Shown here piece after piece: positions 48,886 to 57,508 of a DNA stretch of 64,000 bases. Position 1 is the stretch's first letter. Each line of letters opens with the position of its first letter. The translations under genes and the position numbers were made by a program. The notes beneath the pieces are model-generated. The model was not told the origin of the DNA and made no database searches. It saw nothing but the letters and a program-made list of their open reading frames with translations. The DNA is from Methanospirillum hungatei (GTDB lineage: Archaea; Halobacteriota; Methanomicrobia; Methanomicrobiales; Methanospirillaceae): contig NZ_CP077107.1 of NCBI RefSeq assembly GCF_019263745.1, positions 682,001 through 746,000 on the forward strand, written 5' to 3'.

Positions 48886-49386
48886 ATGCAGTGTGAAATG
48901 TGCGGCGCAGAAGCCAAAGGCCCTCTGAAAAGGATCAAGATCGAAGGGGCCGAGCTCTCGGTGTGTAATGCCTGTGCAAAATATGGTACTGAAGTACAGG
49001 GAGCTCCCCGAACATCTGCAGCACAGTCTGTGAGACCATCCGGGTATGCAGGTGCCAGCAAACCTCCTGCTCAACGGTCCAGAGATCTGTTTGACCGGAT
49101 GGGTGGTGATCTTGTTGAAGATTACCCTGACCGGATACGGGATGCACGGATGAAGCTGGGGATGACCCAGAAAGATCTTGCCCTTGCAATGATGGAGCGA
49201 GAACTCCTGGTAAAGAAAATTGAAAAAGGCGAACTGATTCCTGAAGATGAAGTTCGAAAGAAATTAGAGAAAACACTCAATATCAGTCTTCTCGATGAGG
49301 GTTCATCAGAACCAACCGATCTTCACCATGCACGGATGACCACCACAATGGGGGATGTCATCCAGATTAAGAAGGCGAAGAAGTAA
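48886..49386 (+). CDS. Archaeal multiprotein bridging factor 1
   Basis: aMBF1 links to the transcription and translation machinery in archaea. The protein (~166 residues) has an N-terminal zinc ribbon with 'MQCEMCG' and 'CNACAKYG', a flexible Pro/Ser linker, and a Cro-type helix-turn-helix ('RIRDARMKLGMTQKDLALAMMERELLVKKIEKGELIPEDEVRKKLEKTL'), ending in a basic tail 'QIKKAKK'. The frame opens at 48871, but TATATA at 48850-48855 would place the transcription start near 48877, and family members begin at the 'MxCExCG' Met, so 48886 is preferred. It is divergent from PAN copy 2. Confidence 0.88.
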   Translation: MQCEMCGAEAKGPLKRIKIEGAELSVCNACAKYGTEVQGAPRTSAAQSVRPSGYAGASKPPAQRSRDLFDRMGGDLVEDYPDRIRDARMKLGMTQKDLALAMMERELLVKKIEKGELIPEDEVRKKLEKTLNISLLDEGSSEPTDLHHARMTTTMGDVIQIKKAKK

Positions 49387-49402
49387 TTTCTCTATTTTTC
49401 TA
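49387..49402 (+). terminator. T-rich terminator after aMBF1
   Basis: The 16 bases after the aMBF1 stop are a T-rich run (TTTCTCTATTTTTCTA) without a stem-loop, the form archaeal terminators usually take. It would isolate the downstream leader region from read-through. This is a base-composition argument only. Confidence 0.35.
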
Positions 49403-49444
49403 TGCGTGATCCTGAATCATGCCAGTGTCTTCCATACCATGCCA

Positions 49445-49459
49445 TGCCATATCATGGCA
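49445..49459. promoter_or_regulatory. Palindrome upstream of the aromatic-operon promoter
   Basis: TGCCAT-ATC-ATGGCA is a six-base inverted repeat, preceded by further CCATGCCAT-like units. It lies 13 bases before the TATA box at 49473, the zone where archaeal activators or BRE-blocking repressors bind. No T-run follows it, so it is less likely to be a terminator. It is a candidate operator only. Confidence 0.35.
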
Positions 49460-49472
49460 CGACGACGATACA

Positions 49473-49480
49473 TTTATATT
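49473..49480 (+). promoter_or_regulatory. TATA box (P1) of the aromatic operon leader
   Basis: TTTATATT is close to the archaeal TATA consensus and is preceded by purine-rich bases that could serve as BRE. Its centre lies about 25 bases before the ATG at 49502, so transcription should begin at or next to that ATG, giving a leaderless leader peptide. A second TATA-like TTTTATAC lies at 49600-49607 and would instead give a short leader starting near 49630. Confidence 0.5.
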
Positions 49481-49501
49481 CAGTCCGATTGACCCCTGAT
49501 C

Positions 49502-49645
49502 ATGACACACTGTGCGGAGGGCGTGAAGACTGTAATACACAGTAACTCAGCCATAGCCAGTCCGTCACTCATTTTGAACACGAATTCATTTGATTATCGC
49601 TTTTATACGTTCTTTTTTCGTTTTTATTCATTTTTCTGGTACTGA
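49502..49645 (+). CDS. Putative aromatic-rich leader peptide of the aro operon
   Basis: A 47-codon frame starts at the first ATG after promoter P1 and ends with TGA at 49643-49645. Residues 30-47 read FDYRFYTFFFRFYSFFWY: 13 of 18 are Phe, Tyr or Trp, the end products of the operon that begins 34 bases downstream. Codons are TTT/TTC, TAT/TAC and TGG. The stop codon lies inside an inverted repeat. This is the arrangement of an amino-acid attenuator, with the ribosome stalling near the peptide end when charged tRNAs are scarce. Against it: the region is T-rich, which yields Phe by chance; translation is unproved; and a second TATA-like element lies within it. Confidence 0.45.
   Translation: MTHCAEGVKTVIHSNSAIASPSLILNTNSFDYRFYTFFFRFYSFFWY
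49600..49607 (+). promoter_or_regulatory. Alternative TATA-like element (P2)
   Basis: CTTTTATAC-type sequence (TTTTATAC at 49600-49607) could act as an internal promoter starting transcription around 49630, just before the inverted repeat. If this is the only active promoter, the leader peptide would not be made. It is therefore the main competing reading of this region. Confidence 0.35.
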
Positions 49646-49660
49646 GTGATCACTCGTACC
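49638..49660 (+). promoter_or_regulatory. Inverted repeat overlapping leader stop, with alternative pairing to the SD
   Basis: GGTAC and GAGTGA on the left pair with TCACTC and GTACC on the right, with one unpaired T. As RNA it can fold as a hairpin with a GATC loop. The segment GATCACTC (49648-49655) is also exactly complementary to GAGTGATC at 49668-49675, which overlaps the Shine-Dalgarno (GGAG, 49667-49670) of the ADTH synthase gene. The two pairings exclude each other. As DNA, the duplicated GAGTGATC could instead be a repressor site. Confidence 0.5.
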
Positions 49661-49679
49661 GGAATTGGAGTGATCTATT

Positions 49680-50480
49680 ATGAGAGGGAAAGATATCAGA
49701 CTTGAAAGAATCATGAACCGCAACACAAGAAAGACAATCATAGTTCCGATGGACCATGGTGTAACCCTTGGACCAATACAAGGACTTGTTGATCTTCCTG
49801 ATGCGGTAAACTCGGTTGCGGAAGGTGGAGCAAATGCAGTACTTGGTCATGTAGGATTAGCTTTACATGGTCACCGGCAGCGTGGTCATGATGTCGGACT
49901 AATTTTGCATCTGTCAGCATCAACAGCAATAGGACCAGATCCAAATGAAAAAGTTCTCGTCAATTCTGTAACGAATGCTCTGAAAATGGGAGCAGATGCA
50001 GTTTCTATGCATGTAAATATCGGAGCGGATTCAGAAGCCAAGATGCTCACTGACCTTGGGAAAGTTGCAATTGAATGTATGGAATGGGGAGTTCCGCTCC
50101 TGGCAATGATGTACCCCCGTGGTCGGAATATCAAGGATGAACATGCTGTCGAACACGTCTGTCTGGCTGCGAGGGTTGCAGCAGAACTTGGAGCAGATCT
50201 AGTCAAAACAAACTACACCGGAGATCCTGATTCATTCCGGGAAGTCACCAGGGGATGTCCGGTCCCGGTTGTCGTAGCAGGTGGATCAAAAACTGATGAT
50301 CTCACGACACTCGAACTTATCGAAGGATCAATGGAAGGTGGTGCTGCCGGACTCTCAATTGGACGAAATGCTTTCCAACATGCAAATCCGGCGGCTTTTG
50401 TACGGGCATGTGCAAAGATCGTACATGACGGGTTGAGTGCCTCTGAAGTGAATGAGATGCTGAAAGGTGGTATGATATGA
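49680..50480 (+). CDS. aroA': 2-amino-3,7-dideoxy-D-threo-hept-6-ulosonate (ADTH) synthase
   Basis: This class I aldolase-like enzyme (266 residues) condenses 6-deoxy-5-ketofructose 1-phosphate with aspartate semialdehyde, the first committed step of the methanogen route to dehydroquinate. It begins 'RGKDIRLERIMNRNTRKTIIVPMDHGVTLGP' and has the Schiff-base Lys in 'LVKTNYTGD', with 'VVAGGSKTDD' and 'GLSIGRNAFQH' binding phosphate. GGAG at 49667-49670 gives the ribosome site. It is the first enzyme gene of the operon and is preceded by the putative attenuator. Its stop overlaps the start of its paralogue by four bases. Confidence 0.88.
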   Translation: MRGKDIRLERIMNRNTRKTIIVPMDHGVTLGPIQGLVDLPDAVNSVAEGGANAVLGHVGLALHGHRQRGHDVGLILHLSASTAIGPDPNEKVLVNSVTNALKMGADAVSMHVNIGADSEAKMLTDLGKVAIECMEWGVPLLAMMYPRGRNIKDEHAVEHVCLAARVAAELGADLVKTNYTGDPDSFREVTRGCPVPVVVAGGSKTDDLTTLELIEGSMEGGAAGLSIGRNAFQHANPAAFVRACAKIVHDGLSASEVNEMLKGGMI

Positions 50481-51250
50481 TTGGAAAACAGATTCGACTG
50501 GAACGGATAATGGACCGGAACACAGGAAAAGCGGTCATAATCCCTATGGATCATGGAATGACACTCGGGCAGATTGATGGTCTTTTAAATATGACCGAAA
50601 CTGTTGCAGAGGTGTCTGATGGAGGAGCAAATGCAATTATCCTTCATAAAGGGCTTGTCCGTCCTGGACACCGCAGAAAAGGGAGGGATATCGGGCTCAT
50701 CATCCATCTTTCAGCCGGGACCAGTATGAACCCGGATCCAAATGACAAAGTCCTCATCTGTACTGTTGAAGAGGCAGTATCCCTGGGAGCAGATGCAGTC
50801 TCCATTCATATCAACCTAGGTGCACCTCAGGAGTCTAAGATGATGGAATCTGCCGGACAAGTGGTCCGGGATTGCAACCGGTGGGGGATTCCTCTTCTCG
50901 CAATGATATACCCCCGGGGAGAAGGGATTGATCCGACAGATCCGAGGCATGTCGGCCACGCGGTTCGTGTTGCAGAAGAACTGGGTGCTGATCTTGTCAA
51001 GACAAACTACACCGGAGACCCTCAGACATTTGCAAAGATAGTAAAGGCATCCTCCATACCGGTTCTGATCGCCGGTGGTGAGAAAGGAGAAGATATTGAC
51101 ACCTACAAAACAATCTACGATGCCGTTCACTTTGCAAAGTGTGCCGGTGTCTGCATGGGAAGAAATGCCTTCCAGCGAGATAATGTAGCAAAATTTGTAT
51201 CCAATGTTTCAAAGGTTGTTCTTGAAGGAACCAAACCGGAAAATGTCTGA
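50477..51250 (+). CDS. ADTH synthase/class I FBP aldolase paralogue (possibly DKFP synthase)
   Basis: The 257-residue protein is a diverged paralogue of the preceding gene, sharing the start 'GKQIRLERIMDRNTGKAVIIPMDHGMTLGQ', 'LVKTNYTGD' with the Schiff-base Lys, and the ending 'GVCMGRNAFQRDN'. In Methanocaldococcus two such paralogues exist: one makes 6-deoxy-5-ketofructose 1-phosphate (DKFP) and the other ADTH. Finding both in tandem suggests the same split here, with this copy as DKFP synthase or fructose-bisphosphate aldolase. Which copy does which cannot be settled from sequence by eye. Confidence 0.75.
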   Translation: MIGKQIRLERIMDRNTGKAVIIPMDHGMTLGQIDGLLNMTETVAEVSDGGANAIILHKGLVRPGHRRKGRDIGLIIHLSAGTSMNPDPNDKVLICTVEEAVSLGADAVSIHINLGAPQESKMMESAGQVVRDCNRWGIPLLAMIYPRGEGIDPTDPRHVGHAVRVAEELGADLVKTNYTGDPQTFAKIVKASSIPVLIAGGEKGEDIDTYKTIYDAVHFAKCAGVCMGRNAFQRDNVAKFVSNVSKVVLEGTKPENV

Positions 51251-51256
51251 GGAATT

Positions 51257-52243
51257 ATGAAACAGGTATTTGTTGATCTCAGGCCATGGAACAAGGATCT
51301 TGCAATAGCAGCACTTGAATCAGGTGCTGACGGAGTAGTTGCTGATTCTGCCGGACCGGTCAGGGAGCTTGGGCGTATACCAGTCATTGCCCCGGATGGA
51401 GATCTTATCCCGGAGCAGGATATCAAGGAGATAATAATATCGAATACAGAAGATCAGGCTGTTGCGATGGAGGCTGCAAAGATATGTCGCATCATCGTTC
51501 ATACACCTGACTGGACCATCATTCCCCTTGAAAATCTGGTTGCCTGTGGTGACAATGTCATTGCAGTTGTCACGAATCTGAAAGAAGCAGAACAAGCACT
51601 TACCGTTCTTGAGAAAGGTGTCGCCGGTGTCCTTGTTAAAACTGATGATCCAGACATTGTCAGATCTATCTCCCGAATGGTCCAGTCAGGAACCTGTGGT
51701 CAGCAACTTAATAGACTCACCATTACTGCAGTACAGCCAGCTGGAATGGGTGAACGAGTCTGTGTTGATACATGTTCACTGATGGTTGACGGGGAAGGTA
51801 TGCTGGTTGGGAATACTTCATCCGGATTTTTTCTGGTTCATGCAGAAACTCTGGTTAATCCATATGTTGCACCCCGGCCATTTCGGGTGAATGCCGGTGG
51901 CGTGCATGCGTACCTGCAGGTTCCGGGCGGAAAGACTGCATACCTTGCCGACCTGAAAGCAGGCGATCGGGTGATGGTTATTCATGGAAACGGATCCTGC
52001 CGGGAGGCCACTGTCGGGCGTGTAAAAATTGAACGAAGACCACTCTTTCTAGTGGAAGCAGAAAGCGAAGGACAAAAACTCTCCGTGATTTTACAGAATG
52101 CAGAAACAATCCGACTTGTAAAGCCAGATTATTCAGCAGTATCGGTCACCTCACTCAACCCCGGAGATGTCATTTTAGGAAAAGTTGAGAGTGGAGGCCG
52201 CCATTTCGGCATGGCAATTGATGAGACCATTATTGAGAAATAA
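51257..52243 (+). CDS. aroB': 3-dehydroquinate synthase II
   Basis: The 328-residue enzyme oxidatively deaminates and cyclises ADTH to 3-dehydroquinate in archaea that lack classical AroB. It matches the family in its start '[31 protein letters not shown]', in '[34 protein letters not shown]' and in '[35 protein letters not shown]'. It follows the aldolase paralogue by six bases and precedes tyrA by one base, consistent with one polycistronic message. Confidence 0.93.
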
Positions 52244-52244
52244 C

Positions 52245-53069
52245 ATGAAGATAGGCATCATTGGCGGGACAGGAGGTATGGGAAACCTGTTTTCACAGGT
52301 CTTTGAAAAAGCCGGTCATGAAGTACTTATTGTCGGCAGAAAAACAGAAATTACAAAAGAAGATATTGCCCGTCTTGCAGATGTCATAATTGTATCAGTC
52401 CCAATTCGGGACACTATACCAGTCATCAATGATATTTCACCCCTCCTTCGGGAAGATCAGATACTGGCCGATCTGACCTCGATAAAAGTCGGACCGGTTC
52501 ATGCAATGCTCTCCTCCCATGCACAGGTTATTGGATTTCATCCTATGTTTGGTCCGACGGTTGGTACAATCCAGGGACAAACTATTGTTGCTACTCCGAC
52601 ACGGTGTGTTGAAGAAAATATCCGATTCTTTGAAGATATCTTCACATTCCAGGGTGCCAGAGTAACCAGAACCACACCTGAGGAACATGATCGGATGATG
52701 GCAGTTATCCAGGGACTTACCCACTTTAAAGCCATTCTCCTCGCAGGAACAATGCGAAGACTCGGGATATCACCTGCAGACACAGAATTGTATATGAGCC
52801 CGGTATACCGGATTGAGACAGGAATTGCCGGAAGACTGCTTTCACAAAACCCCGATCTGTATGCAGATATTCTTTGTCTGAATCCTAGTGTACCATCAGT
52901 TCTGGAAACATGTGAAGAAGCAGCAAAAGAAATTCTCGAAATGATCACTCGTGGTGATAGGAATGGGTTTACAGCCGAATTTCTTGCATCACGGGAATGG
53001 TTTGGTCCCTTCTGTGATCAGGCACAAAAAGAAACCGATCATCTTATCCATGCTATGGTGAACCAATGA
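52245..53069 (+). CDS. tyrA: Prephenate dehydrogenase
   Basis: TyrA oxidatively decarboxylates prephenate to 4-hydroxyphenylpyruvate for tyrosine synthesis. The 274-residue protein begins with the NAD(P)-binding 'MKIGIIGGTGGMGNLFSQVFEKAGHEVLIVGR'. 'VIVSVPIRDTIPVI' and 'VIGFHPMFGPTVGTIQGQ' mark the rest of the Rossmann domain and the substrate site, and a helical dimerisation domain follows. No chorismate mutase domain is fused. The frame is open from 52185, but ATG 52245 is the family start. Its stop overlaps pheA by four bases. Confidence 0.92.
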   Translation: MKIGIIGGTGGMGNLFSQVFEKAGHEVLIVGRKTEITKEDIARLADVIIVSVPIRDTIPVINDISPLLREDQILADLTSIKVGPVHAMLSSHAQVIGFHPMFGPTVGTIQGQTIVATPTRCVEENIRFFEDIFTFQGARVTRTTPEEHDRMMAVIQGLTHFKAILLAGTMRRLGISPADTELYMSPVYRIETGIAGRLLSQNPDLYADILCLNPSVPSVLETCEEAAKEILEMITRGDRNGFTAEFLASREWFGPFCDQAQKETDHLIHAMVNQ

Positions 53070-53860
53070 CTCTTATTACACTCGGGCCTGAAGGAACATT
53101 TTCTCATGACCTCGCCCGCACAATGGACAGTTCAATAATTCTTGTTCCATCAATAGGCCGGGTATTTTCTGAAGTTGAAAAGACCGGCATTCCCGGACTT
53201 GTTCCAATTGAAAACAGTGAAGCAGGTGGTGTCATTGCAACAATGGATGGTCTGATGCTCCATGATGTTTTTATTACCTCCGAACATTACCTGCACATCC
53301 ATCACAGTTATGCATCAGATGCTCCAAAAGAAAGCATTGAAGTGATTTTTGCCCATCCCCAAAGTCATGAACAATGTAGTAAATTTATAGATACTCTTGG
53401 TATTCAGGTCATCCATACTGAAAGTAATGCCGCAAGTGCGAATGCTCAAAAGCAGCGAGTCGGTTCTGCAGCGATCATCTCAAGTACTCTGGCACAACAA
53501 TCAGAAATCCCAATCCTTGCAGATAATATTGAAAATAATCCGGATAATATCACCCGGTTTATAGTAATCTCAAAAACTCCAGGAACGGGTGTAAATCCTA
53601 AAAAGTGTAGCATAATCATAGATCCCGGAGAAAACCGGGCAGGACTGCTTTATGATCTGCTAAGTCCTTTTAAAGATATTGGGGTCAACCTGACCCGGAT
53701 TGAATCACGTCCCTCAAAACGTTGCATGGGAAATTATGTTTTCTTCATCGATCTGGAATGTGAAGGAGATTGGAAACGTGCAATTGAGAAGATTTCTACC
53801 ATTACAAAAGTAAAGCATCTTGGATGCTATCATGTTATCGGAGATGATCCATGCAGATAA
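53066..53860 (+). CDS. pheA: Prephenate dehydratase
   Basis: PheA converts prephenate to phenylpyruvate for phenylalanine synthesis. The 264-residue protein has the catalytic-domain motifs 'LGPEGTFSHDLA', 'VPIENSEAGGV' and 'DNITRFIVIS' (the TRF motif). The C-terminal ACT domain, 'RAGLLYDLLSPFKDIGVNLTRIESRPSK', carries the ESRP phenylalanine-binding motif, so feedback inhibition by phenylalanine is expected. There is no fused chorismate mutase. It overlaps tyrA by four bases and aroA by ten. Confidence 0.94.
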   Translation: MTLITLGPEGTFSHDLARTMDSSIILVPSIGRVFSEVEKTGIPGLVPIENSEAGGVIATMDGLMLHDVFITSEHYLHIHHSYASDAPKESIEVIFAHPQSHEQCSKFIDTLGIQVIHTESNAASANAQKQRVGSAAIISSTLAQQSEIPILADNIENNPDNITRFIVISKTPGTGVNPKKCSIIIDPGENRAGLLYDLLSPFKDIGVNLTRIESRPSKRCMGNYVFFIDLECEGDWKRAIEKISTITKVKHLGCYHVIGDDPCR

Positions 53861-55146
53861 CAATCGGTGCATGCGGACCGGTTCATTTATCCTGCATTGC
53901 TCCTCCCTCAAAAAGTTTCACTCACCGGGCATTGATAATCGCAGCCTTAGCTAACGGAGAGTCGGAAATAATCGGGCAACTGGATGCTGATGATACCAGG
54001 ATGACTGCACGGGCTCTCATGCAGTTAGGAATATGTCTGGAGTGGGGAAGAGAGAGCATTAAGGTGCAGGGGAAAGGGGGTGTTCTCACTTCACCTGCAG
54101 AAGAGATAAACATTCAGGATTCCGGAACCTCAATGCGGCTTTTGACTGCAATATCCCTTCTTGCTGATGGACCGGTTACCCTTACCGGAAGTGCACGGAT
54201 GCAGGAACGGCCACTTGGTCCTCTTATTGACACACTGAACACAGCCGGAGCCAAAATTTCCTCCCTGAACCATCCAGGTTGTCCCCCGATCAGGATAGAG
54301 GGTTCAATCCCCGGAGGGGATATCTCAATTGATGGCAGCATATCAAGCCAGTTTATCTCATCACTCCTGATTGCAGCCCCATATGCAAACCAGGAGACTC
54401 GGATACATCTTATTGGAGAACCGGTTTCTCTTCCGTACATTCTGATGACGATTCATAGTATGCATGCATTTGGTGCGAAAGTGGTCGTTGATGAAAATCC
54501 ATCAGGGGAGACGGTGTTTATTGTATCACCTGACTACCAGTATAAACCACGAACGTACCAAATCGAGGGAGATTTTTCATCTGCATCATACTGGTTTGCG
54601 CTTGCCGCTCTATGCGGAGGAACCGCAACCGTTTCCGACCTAAATCCATTCTCCACCCAGGGTGACCGAAGGCTTGTGGACATTCTTGAAAAGATGGGGT
54701 GTACATGTTCAAAAGAGAAAAACTCCATCACAATCACCCGTGATATGGATAAACCTCTAACCGGAATTGAGGTAAATATGGCGGACTGCCCGGATATTGT
54801 GCAGACAGTCTGCATGGTTGCTGCAACTGCTATCACAACGACTCGCATTACCGGTGTTCATCATCTCCGGATAAAAGAAAGTGACCGGATTGCAGCGATT
54901 GCTAACGGGCTTCGCTCTCTTGGAGGAATTATTGAGACTGATGAAGATGCTATCACCATTCATCCTGCACCCCTTCATGGAGGAGTAATACACCCTCACA
55001 ATGATCACAGGACTGCAATGAGCTTTGCAATACTGGGATGTTTTATCGGTGGTGTCACAATCCTTGATGCCGGATGCGTGACAAAATCATATCCAGGATT
55101 TTGGGAGGAGTTACGACGAATATGGCAAAACGCCGTATTGTGCTAA
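53851..55146 (+). CDS. aroA: 3-phosphoshikimate 1-carboxyvinyltransferase (EPSP synthase)
   Basis: AroA joins PEP to shikimate 3-phosphate. The 431-residue protein shows 'PPSKSFTHRALIIAALANGES' (the SKSxTxR phosphate site), 'IQDSGTSMRLLTAIS' (variant of the NSGTSMR PEP site), 'QERPLGPLIDTLNTAGA' and 'HHLRIKESDRIAAIANGLRSLGG', and ends with 'NDHRTAMSFAILGC'. It overlaps pheA by ten bases and the kinase-dehydrogenase fusion by 25, so it lies fully inside the operon. Confidence 0.95.
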   Translation: MQITIGACGPVHLSCIAPPSKSFTHRALIIAALANGESEIIGQLDADDTRMTARALMQLGICLEWGRESIKVQGKGGVLTSPAEEINIQDSGTSMRLLTAISLLADGPVTLTGSARMQERPLGPLIDTLNTAGAKISSLNHPGCPPIRIEGSIPGGDISIDGSISSQFISSLLIAAPYANQETRIHLIGEPVSLPYILMTIHSMHAFGAKVVVDENPSGETVFIVSPDYQYKPRTYQIEGDFSSASYWFALAALCGGTATVSDLNPFSTQGDRRLVDILEKMGCTCSKEKNSITITRDMDKPLTGIEVNMADCPDIVQTVCMVAATAITTTRITGVHHLRIKESDRIAAIANGLRSLGGIIETDEDAITIHPAPLHGGVIHPHNDHRTAMSFAILGCFIGGVTILDAGCVTKSYPGFWEELRRIWQNAVLC

Positions 55147-56504
55147 TCGGATACCGGGGAACAGGAAAAAGCAGTATTGGAAAAGCTCTTGCTCTCCAAA
55201 CCGGACAAAGCCACCTAGATACAGATCAGTTGATCGTTGATGCAACCGGTAAAACAATACCGGAAATTTTTAATTCAGAAGGAGAAGCAGGATTTCGTGA
55301 GATAGAACAACATGTCATAGCACGAATCCCATCCGGAGCCGGGATTATCAGTACCGGAGGAGGAGCTGTTATTCGTCCTGCTAACGTGCAGATGCTCCGA
55401 ATGAACAGTGTGATTGTCCTTCTGACTTCAAAGCCAGAGATTATTTTCAAGCGAATTCATAAAACTGACAGGCCATCACTTACCGGACTTCCTCCCAAGG
55501 AAGAGATAGAAAATGTCCTGGAAGAGCGGATGCCGACTTACCGTAGTGCTGCAGATTTTGTGCTGGATACGAGTACGACAACAGCCCGGGAAGCTGCTAC
55601 TCAGATTCTTGAGTTGATACAAAGCGGGATATGTAATCCTGAAAAGCGGATGAAATTAATCTCATCAGTGATACAAACCTCAATTCCATCAGGAGAAAAG
55701 ATCCATCTGAAAAAGAATGCAGGGTGCTCAGATATTTTTCTGTATGGTATCCTTGGATATCCCTGCATGCATAGTAAGAGTCCTGCTATCTATAATCACC
55801 TGTTTGCAGATTATGGAATTCCTGCTCACTATACCTGGTTTGAACAAAAAGATCCGGGAGATTTTTTACAATCTCTCCCAGAAACTGGTGTCCGGGGCCT
55901 TTCAGTTACGATTCCTCATAAAGTCACAATTATGCCTCATCTTGATGAAGTGAAACATGATGCAGAATCCATTGGTGCTGTAAATACGGTCCTTATTCTG
56001 AATGATGAGAAATTTGGATACAATACTGACTGGAAAGGGATTTATCGTCCACTAGAAGGTGTTACTGGTGAAAAGGCCGCTATTTTGGGAGCAGGTGGAG
56101 CAGCTGCAGCAGCAGTGTATGCTGTTTCCATGCGAGGATATACCCCCGTCATCTTAAACCGTTCACCTGAGCGTGCAATACACCTTGCACGAAAAACCGG
56201 AGCAGAGACAGGAATGCTGGAGGATATCGGAAAATTTTCTCCAGACCTCATTATTAACACCACTCCTGTCGGTATGGGGAAAGATCCGAATATTCCAATT
56301 CCTCCACAGGCATTAAAACCAGAGATGAAAGTTTTTGATCTGGTATACACACCAAAAGATACACCCCTGCTTCAGGCAGCCCTCGCAACCGGATGTTCAG
56401 TAATCCCCGGTACGGAGATGTTCATTCATCAGCTTGCTGAACAATTCAGAATCCTCACAGGAATTGAAGCACCAGTATCACGAATCAGGGAGATGCTTGG
56501 GTGA
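55122..56504 (+). CDS. aroKE: Shikimate kinase-shikimate dehydrogenase fusion
   Basis: The protein (460 residues) joins two consecutive enzymes. Residues ~1-170 are a bacterial-type AroK with Walker A 'GYRGTGKSSIG', 'LDTDQLI' for shikimate, 'GFREIEQHVI' and 'STGGGAVIRP'. Residues ~205-460 are AroE: 'GYPCMHSKSPAIYNHLF', 'VTIPHKVTIMPHLDE' with the catalytic Lys, the NADP loop 'ILGAGGAAAAAVYAV' and 'NTTPVGM'. ATG 55122 is chosen because GGGAGGAG precedes it by 11 bases. Archaea normally have a GHMP-type shikimate kinase, so the AroK half is probably of bacterial origin. It overlaps aroA and, by four bases, aroC. Confidence 0.92.
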   Translation: MAKRRIVLIGYRGTGKSSIGKALALQTGQSHLDTDQLIVDATGKTIPEIFNSEGEAGFREIEQHVIARIPSGAGIISTGGGAVIRPANVQMLRMNSVIVLLTSKPEIIFKRIHKTDRPSLTGLPPKEEIENVLEERMPTYRSAADFVLDTSTTTAREAATQILELIQSGICNPEKRMKLISSVIQTSIPSGEKIHLKKNAGCSDIFLYGILGYPCMHSKSPAIYNHLFADYGIPAHYTWFEQKDPGDFLQSLPETGVRGLSVTIPHKVTIMPHLDEVKHDAESIGAVNTVLILNDEKFGYNTDWKGIYRPLEGVTGEKAAILGAGGAAAAAVYAVSMRGYTPVILNRSPERAIHLARKTGAETGMLEDIGKFSPDLIINTTPVGMGKDPNIPIPPQALKPEMKVFDLVYTPKDTPLLQAALATGCSVIPGTEMFIHQLAEQFRILTGIEAPVSRIREMLG

Positions 56505-57508
56505 ATACGTTTGGATCCAATTTCAAGGTTACCACCTTTGGTGAAAGTCATGGAGCAGCCATTGGAGTAGTGATCGATGGTTGCCCTCCGGGATTTTCAA
56601 TTTCTGAAACTGACATTCAGATCTTTCTGGATAAGCGTCGGCCGGGTCAGTGTGATCTGGTCACTCCTAGACAGGAGGCTGATGCTGTTCAGATACTCTC
56701 CGGTGTATTTGAAGGAAAAACACTAGGCACACCAATCTGTCTGCTCATTCATAATACCTCGATGAAATCTTCTGACTATGATGAACTCAAAGAAATATTC
56801 AGGCCAGGTCATGCTGATCGCGGATATCTTCAAAAATATGGCATTCGGGATCATCGGGGAGGAGGACGAAGTTCAGGTCGGGAGACTGCAGCCCGTGTCG
56901 CTGCCGGTGCAGTCGCACGCCTCTACCTTCAAAAAAAGGGCATAATAATCTCCGGATCACTCATTGAAGTGCACGGAGAAACGAATTCGGATGCAATTGA
57001 AAAAGCCATCCGTGATGCCCGGGATACTGGAGAATCTATCGGAGGCATAGTACAACTTCAGGTATCCGGATGCCCAGCAGGCCTTGGTGATCCTGTATTT
57101 GGAAAACTCGATGCACGAATCGCGTATGCAATGATGGGAATTGGAGGTGTGAAAGCAGTCGAGATTGGATCAGGGGTGCAGGCTTCTAAGATGATCGGAT
57201 CAGAACATAATGATCAGATGACACCAGAAGGATACTGTTCAAATCATGCAGGAGGCATTCTGGGTGGTATATCCACTGGACAGGAAATCCTGGTAAGGCT
57301 GAGTGTAAAGCCAACCCCGTCAATTCGAACCCTTCAGCGTACTATTGGAACCGACGGATATGAAAAAACCCTATCAGTTCATGGAAGGCATGATCCCTGT
57401 ATTGCAGTAAGAATTGTGCCGGTAGCAGAAGCAATGATGGCTCTTGTTCTCATGGACGTTCTTCTTGAACAAAGAAAAATTGATCCTGACAAAAAACCAG
57501 GGTTCTGA
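56501..57508 (+). CDS. aroC: Chorismate synthase
   Basis: AroC eliminates phosphate from EPSP to give chorismate and needs reduced FMN. The 335-residue protein shows 'FGESHGAAIGVVIDGCPPG', 'RPGHADRGYLQKYGIRDHRGGGRSSGRETAARVAAGA' in part, and 'GGILGGISTGQEI', the three family signatures. The GTG start overlaps the stop of the upstream gene by four bases (GTGA). It completes the route to chorismate within this operon. Confidence 0.95.
   Translation: MNTFGSNFKVTTFGESHGAAIGVVIDGCPPGFSISETDIQIFLDKRRPGQCDLVTPRQEADAVQILSGVFEGKTLGTPICLLIHNTSMKSSDYDELKEIFRPGHADRGYLQKYGIRDHRGGGRSSGRETAARVAAGAVARLYLQKKGIIISGSLIEVHGETNSDAIEKAIRDARDTGESIGGIVQLQVSGCPAGLGDPVFGKLDARIAYAMMGIGGVKAVEIGSGVQASKMIGSEHNDQMTPEGYCSNHAGGILGGISTGQEILVRLSVKPTPSIRTLQRTIGTDGYEKTLSVHGRHDPCIAVRIVPVAEAMMALVLMDVLLEQRKIDPDKKPGF

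Follow-up and report, generated by a model that had tools for sequence, protein, structure and literature searches.

A candidate ribosome-mediated attenuator upstream of the aro operon in Methanospirillum hungatei and other Methanomicrobiales

Does the short open reading frame (ORF) ahead of the aro operon of Methanospirillum hungatei, which ends in a dense run of codons for aromatic amino acids, encode a leader peptide through which ribosomes could sense the supply of Phe, Tyr and Trp? The window analyzed here is a 64,000-nt stretch of contig NZ_CP077107.1 (positions 682,001 to 746,000), and all coordinates refer to it. We assign a probability of about 0.7 to the reading that the ORF is the leader peptide of a ribosome-mediated attenuator that chiefly controls how translation of the aro operon is initiated. 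The comparison of genomes presented below gives good support to the leader and its frame, to the aromatic codons in it and to an adjoining hairpin with covariation.

The operon is led by 2-amino-3,7-dideoxy-D-threo-hept-6-ulosonate (ADTH) synthase and serves synthesis of chorismate, Phe and Tyr. NCBIfam models identified two ADTH synthase paralogues, 3-dehydroquinate (DHQ) synthase II, prephenate dehydrogenase, prephenate dehydratase, AroA and an AroK-AroE fusion, and the ORF at 56501 is a probable chorismate synthase, an assignment read from the ORF. The ADTH synthase paralogues are adjacent (49680-51250) and 52% identical, and opening the operon with such a pair is conserved across the order. 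Features of the locus are listed in Table 1.

Table 1. Features of the aro leader region and operon in the M. hungatei window
Feature	Positions	Strand	Remarks
Palindrome-like motif TGNCATGCNATNNCATGGCA	49436..49462	+	Just upstream of the TATA box; found by alignment in 12/12 Methanospirillum
TATA box TTTATAT	49473..49479	+	First base 29 nt before the leader ATG; same spacing in 12/12 congeners
Leader peptide ORF	49502..49645	+	47 codons plus TGA; open in 12/12 Methanospirillum
Control-codon tail	49589..49642	+	Phe/Tyr/Trp at 13/18 codons
Arm A GGTACTGAGT	49638..49647	+	Overlaps Trp, Tyr and stop codons; predicted to pair with B (anti-sequestor)
Arm B GATCACTCGTACC	49648..49660	+	Predicted to pair with A, or with Shine-Dalgarno arm C
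Arm C, ADTH synthase Shine-Dalgarno GGAGTGATC	49667..49675	+	Predicted to be masked when paired with B
ADTH synthase, first gene of the operon	49680..50480	+	NCBIfam TIGR01949
Remaining aro operon	50477..57508	+	ADTH synthase paralogue, DHQ synthase II, prephenate dehydrogenase, prephenate dehydratase, AroA, AroK-AroE fusion, probable chorismate synthase

The 47-codon frame with its aromatic tail exists as the original prediction described it, running from an ATG at 49502 to a TGA at 49643-49645 with the product MTHCAEGVKTVIHSNSAIASPSLILNTNSFDYRFYTFFFRFYSFFWY, and the predicted gap of 34 nt between its stop and the ADTH synthase ATG (49680) was likewise borne out. The 64 kb contains 61,961 stop-free 18-codon windows when all six frames are read; the leader tail ranks first among them in aromatic content, and the runner-up, which is unrelated, has 11 aromatic codons. 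When the 250-nt upstream region was subjected to 300 dinucleotide shuffles, the best aromatic count in an ORF tail averaged 4.15 and never exceeded 8. The promoter-like sequence noted at 49473 is a TATA box; the accompanying gap was put at about 25 nt, and the ATG begins 29 nt after the first base of the box; in all twelve Methanospirillum genomes the ATG follows TTTA(T/A) by 29 nt. Because the first base of the TATA box is only this far from the leader ATG, transcription probably begins at that ATG or a few nt before it, which would yield a leaderless mRNA. The motif at 49436-49462 is a possible transcription-factor site.

Within Methanospirillum, the frame is kept in 12 of 12 genomes at 47 or 60 codons, lengths that differ by whole codons, and it invariably ends in F-W-Y-stop, with TGA or TAG as the stop. 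Codon changes were analyzed in an eight-genome clade, using codon pairs that differ by one base and include an aromatic codon, and an expectation drawn from the local mutation spectrum. The aromatic class was retained in 61% of these differences against 29% expected; the corresponding values for the other two frames were 3% and 10%. In the same clade pN/pS was 0.33 in the aromatic tail and 0.69 in the leader before it, and the N-terminal two thirds are weakly constrained and wholly different between clades and genera. What the alignments retain is the aromatic codons beside the stop, a pattern that fits a control-codon run and is unlike T-rich DNA. A conserved small protein (a membrane peptide, for example) that lies before the operon by happenstance would agree with the conservation of the ORF and with its hydrophobic, aromatic tail. 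We consider this very unlikely, as the bulk of the peptide turns over while the codons next to the stop persist, and as both the constant location ahead of the operon and the neighboring hairpin at the Shine-Dalgarno suit a cis element.

Leaders of this kind are found throughout the Methanomicrobiales. Almost all genera tested, from six of six families, have an ORF ahead of ADTH synthase whose tail is rich in F/Y(/W); tails from other genera include YHRYFGYFWYFY, FGFFGFFSFYYRFYYWY, FCFGSYFYLFYFYFWF and GFFFGFSYFFSYYFWFRQ. The aromatic count was significant against dinucleotide shuffles (p<=0.05) in 27 of 32 representatives, with L023, L030 and L114 among the weak ones, and Fisher's combined p over the representatives was 3e-32, a value that overstates independence since the genomes are related. 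Counting back from the stop, the aromatic frequency was 0.64-0.89 at codons -1 to -5, 0.50-0.64 at -6 to -9 and <0.2 beyond -14. The ORF directly upstream of the operon is thus enriched in codons for the operon's end products, as in attenuators of the trp/phe type, and by this comparison the aromatic leader is well supported and far beyond chance. No similar leader was seen upstream of hisG, trpE or tyrS in the same Methanomicrobiales genomes, and none occurred at ADTH synthase in a small sample of eight Halobacteriota loci from other orders.

Chance encoding of Phe and Tyr by T-rich, TATA-containing promoter DNA had been named as the serious alternative, and to it can be joined the reading of the palindrome at 49638-49660 as a DNA operator. 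The region is indeed AT-rich, GGTACTGAGTGATCACTCGTACC is a nearly perfect dyad in the M. hungatei strain, and a second palindromic motif precedes the TATA box. Chance coding was rejected by the shuffles, which fell below the observed count in most genomes, by the frame controls, with the aromatic class retained in the leader frame only, and by conservation. The TATA-like sequence at about 49599 is itself unconserved. That the dyad serves purely as an operator is disfavored by compensatory and length changes: its arms covary and its center varies in length, as an RNA hairpin would. Taken together, this alternative is extremely improbable. As evidence against a leader peptide, we looked for homologues in which the frame was broken, or in which the aromatic codons were missing despite retained T-richness; frame, stop and aromatic codons were all kept in the Methanomicrobiales, the conserved TATA box is the one upstream, and the leader was not refuted.

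A hairpin follows or overlaps the leader stop in every representative folded. Its sequence differs between genera, and in most of them its 3' arm contains or abuts the operon Shine-Dalgarno. The folding z-score after the stop averaged -2.0, with 22 of 42 values below -2, compared with -0.8 and 7 of 42 in the leader body. The Shine-Dalgarno-masking hairpin that the original prediction had offered as one option is in agreement with these results, the pairing being kept while the sequence changes. No Rfam covariance model for riboswitches, T-boxes or leader RNA families matched the leader region. Three arms can be recognized in Methanospirillum, where 97.2% of alignment cells are paired in the A:B helix, with three compensatory pairs, and 94.8% in the B:C helix, with two. 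A:B and B:C are predicted to be mutually exclusive helices, of which B:C would mask the Shine-Dalgarno, an arrangement recognized in Methanospirillum.

Switching was modeled with a ribosome footprint and RNA energies that are both approximations. In all twelve Methanospirillum the free RNA was predicted to form A:B, which in most also formed with an upstream ribosome; B:C resulted when the ribosome stood at about codons -5 to -2, and one at the stop disrupted both helices. It counts against the model that in this genus the Shine-Dalgarno was predicted to change its mean unpaired fraction only modestly with ribosome position. Across 42 genomes of the order, opening the start region was predicted to take a median of 11.3 kcal/mol in free RNA, about 9-11 kcal/mol with the A site at -10 to -3, and 8.3, 7.0 and 6.7 kcal/mol with the ribosome at -2, -1 and the stop. 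A Shine-Dalgarno-masking hairpin, as in translational attenuators of the erm/cat type, is present in most genera but not in the f2 genomes (L111, L116, L121) or L129. There the hairpin is located far 5' of the ADTH synthase ATG and therefore cannot mask the start site directly; these genomes fall outside the translation model, and transcriptional or processing effects are possible in them.

We infer the transcription start, translation of the leader, tRNA sensing, switching and the sign of the response from these features. Ribosomes would translate the leaderless mRNA from the leader ATG, their position on the run of Phe/Tyr/Trp codons would report the charging of tRNA-Phe, tRNA-Tyr and tRNA-Trp, and the hairpin would make the ADTH synthase start accessible or not according to that position. 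In Methanospirillum, expression would be ON when a ribosome is held on the upstream aromatic codons, leaving A:B paired and the Shine-Dalgarno free of B, and OFF when a ribosome that has run on covers A, at about codons -5 to -2, and lets B pair with the Shine-Dalgarno. In most other genera, a simple two-arm sequestor would be melted while a ribosome dwells on the final aromatic codons, so that expression is ON during dwelling and OFF after release. Two points count against the reading: this hairpin would stay closed if the ribosome stalled farther upstream than about 5 codons, and the ON/OFF logic of the three-arm model is unlike that of the general two-arm model. A ribosome at the leader end is predicted to open the hairpin in most genera, which would also fit constitutive translational coupling, whereby translation of the leader exposes the Shine-Dalgarno and supplies the operon with ribosomes irrespective of aromatics. 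We think this quite unlikely, since it leaves unexplained both the retention of codons for Phe, Tyr and Trp, the operon's own products, and the three-arm switch of Methanospirillum.

A ribosome-mediated attenuator could instead act on transcription. Archaeal termination uses T-rich tracts. The U-rich Phe codons might themselves be an archaeal terminator, with a stalled ribosome shielding the RNA and the polymerase passing. This reading draws on the T runs of 6 in the tail of the M. hungatei leader, on the known use of T-rich tracts in termination and on the f2 hairpin, which lies far from the start codon and is uncovered by a translation-only model. However, the longest T runs are only 3-7 across genera, and TTT is in no excess, the TTT:TTC ratio being 131:51 in the tails and 61:20 in genes of the window. 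In most genera the hairpin's 3' arm is at the Shine-Dalgarno; no terminator hairpin with a U run was found between leader and gene, none overlaps the leader, and no T run follows the hairpins. Bacterial ADTH synthase operons (Desulfobacterales, Gracilibacteria; L099-L105, L081, L082) have an F/Y-rich leader frame before the same downstream gene, and one of them (L101), unlike the archaeal leaders, has a conventional terminator between leader and gene. Transcription attenuation is unlikely on this evidence, and a U-rich stretch selected as a terminator, as originally envisaged, finds no backing. Of the original interpretation, a leader peptide sensing Phe/Tyr/Trp supply stands as by far the best reading, given its order-wide conservation and hairpin, and the termination branch is not supported.

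Leader architecture varies outside Methanospirillum. The leaderless ATG of most other genera begins a first ORF (ORF1) of 14-17 codons, longer in a few, with the pattern M-x-G-E-C-F-F-A-x-E-x-F-Y-x-x-stop, about 140-205 nt before the leader stop (L013, L015, L016, L019, L021, L024, L028, L029, L058, L063, L074, L111-L115 and L125). The aromatic ORF2 overlaps it in the +1 frame, and a slippery T-TTT-TTC lies in the overlap. The distance from the ATG to the ORF2 stop is 139-205 nt and equals 1 mod 3 in 17 of 17 genomes of other genera, and this constancy indicates that the frame relation of the two ORFs was kept through many indels. Possible entries to ORF2 are a conserved GTG (ATG in Methanoregula) or a +1 frameshift at T-TTT-TTC. 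At leuA, no run of Leu/Ile/Val codons was found; a different mini-ORF, M-S/R-D/E-C-F-I-x-stop, is conserved order-wide at the leuA start (L278-L307; G000:C1:3036337-3036354, minus strand). It lies 3' of a TATA box and overlaps a possible LeuA GTG start in another frame, and D/E-C-F is common to it and ORF1 of the aro leaders. That leader-peptide control is an established layer in the Methanomicrobiales, comprising overlapping and possibly frameshift-joined aro leader ORFs together with the leuA mini-ORF (M-S-D/E-C-F-I) in architectures not seen in bacteria, is a tentative and rather doubtful suggestion; if true, archaea evolved ribosome-mediated attenuation of their own architecture.

The candidate attenuator shares with the bacterial pheL, trpL and hisL systems a short leader ORF with product codons beside mutually exclusive helices. 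It differs from them in its archaeal host, in having no terminator hairpin with a U run, in its predicted effect on the Shine-Dalgarno, in a leader ORF that is probably leaderless and in its many control codons, which reach right up to the stop. Bacterial ermC/cat translational attenuators likewise combine a leader peptide with a structure that masks a downstream Shine-Dalgarno, and in the actinobacterial LEU element a codon run pairs with the leuA Shine-Dalgarno (PMC1262725). In contrast to these, the archaeal signal is presumably tRNA charging and not an antibiotic, and there is no sequence relation. Aromatic control known from archaea is exerted by DNA-binding proteins. The TrpY site is TGTACA, and neither it nor the Tar site TGGACA-N8-TGTCCA occurs in 49300-49700. 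Unlike the leader, TrpY (Methanothermobacter) and Tar/TK0271 (Thermococcus) control archaeal aromatic amino acid operons by binding DNA (PMC6737238).

According to a 2021 paper, neither attenuation of transcription nor antitermination had been described in archaea (PMC8448881). Control by upstream ORFs in archaea receives a general mention in a 2023 tool paper (PMC10219788), and ribosome profiling in Methanosarcina described small ORFs in 5' UTRs without a leader-peptide mechanism (PMC11456600). No archaeal amino-acid attenuator was found in the open-access literature searched, and the original prediction had remarked that ribosome-mediated attenuation is not known to be an established archaeal mechanism. 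If our reading is true, the aro leader would be, as far as we have found, the first candidate for ribosomal amino-acid sensing in archaea, operating on a leaderless mRNA and probably at the level of translation. Such a leader would matter for how transcription and translation are coupled in archaea and for the question of a single or repeated origin of attenuation.
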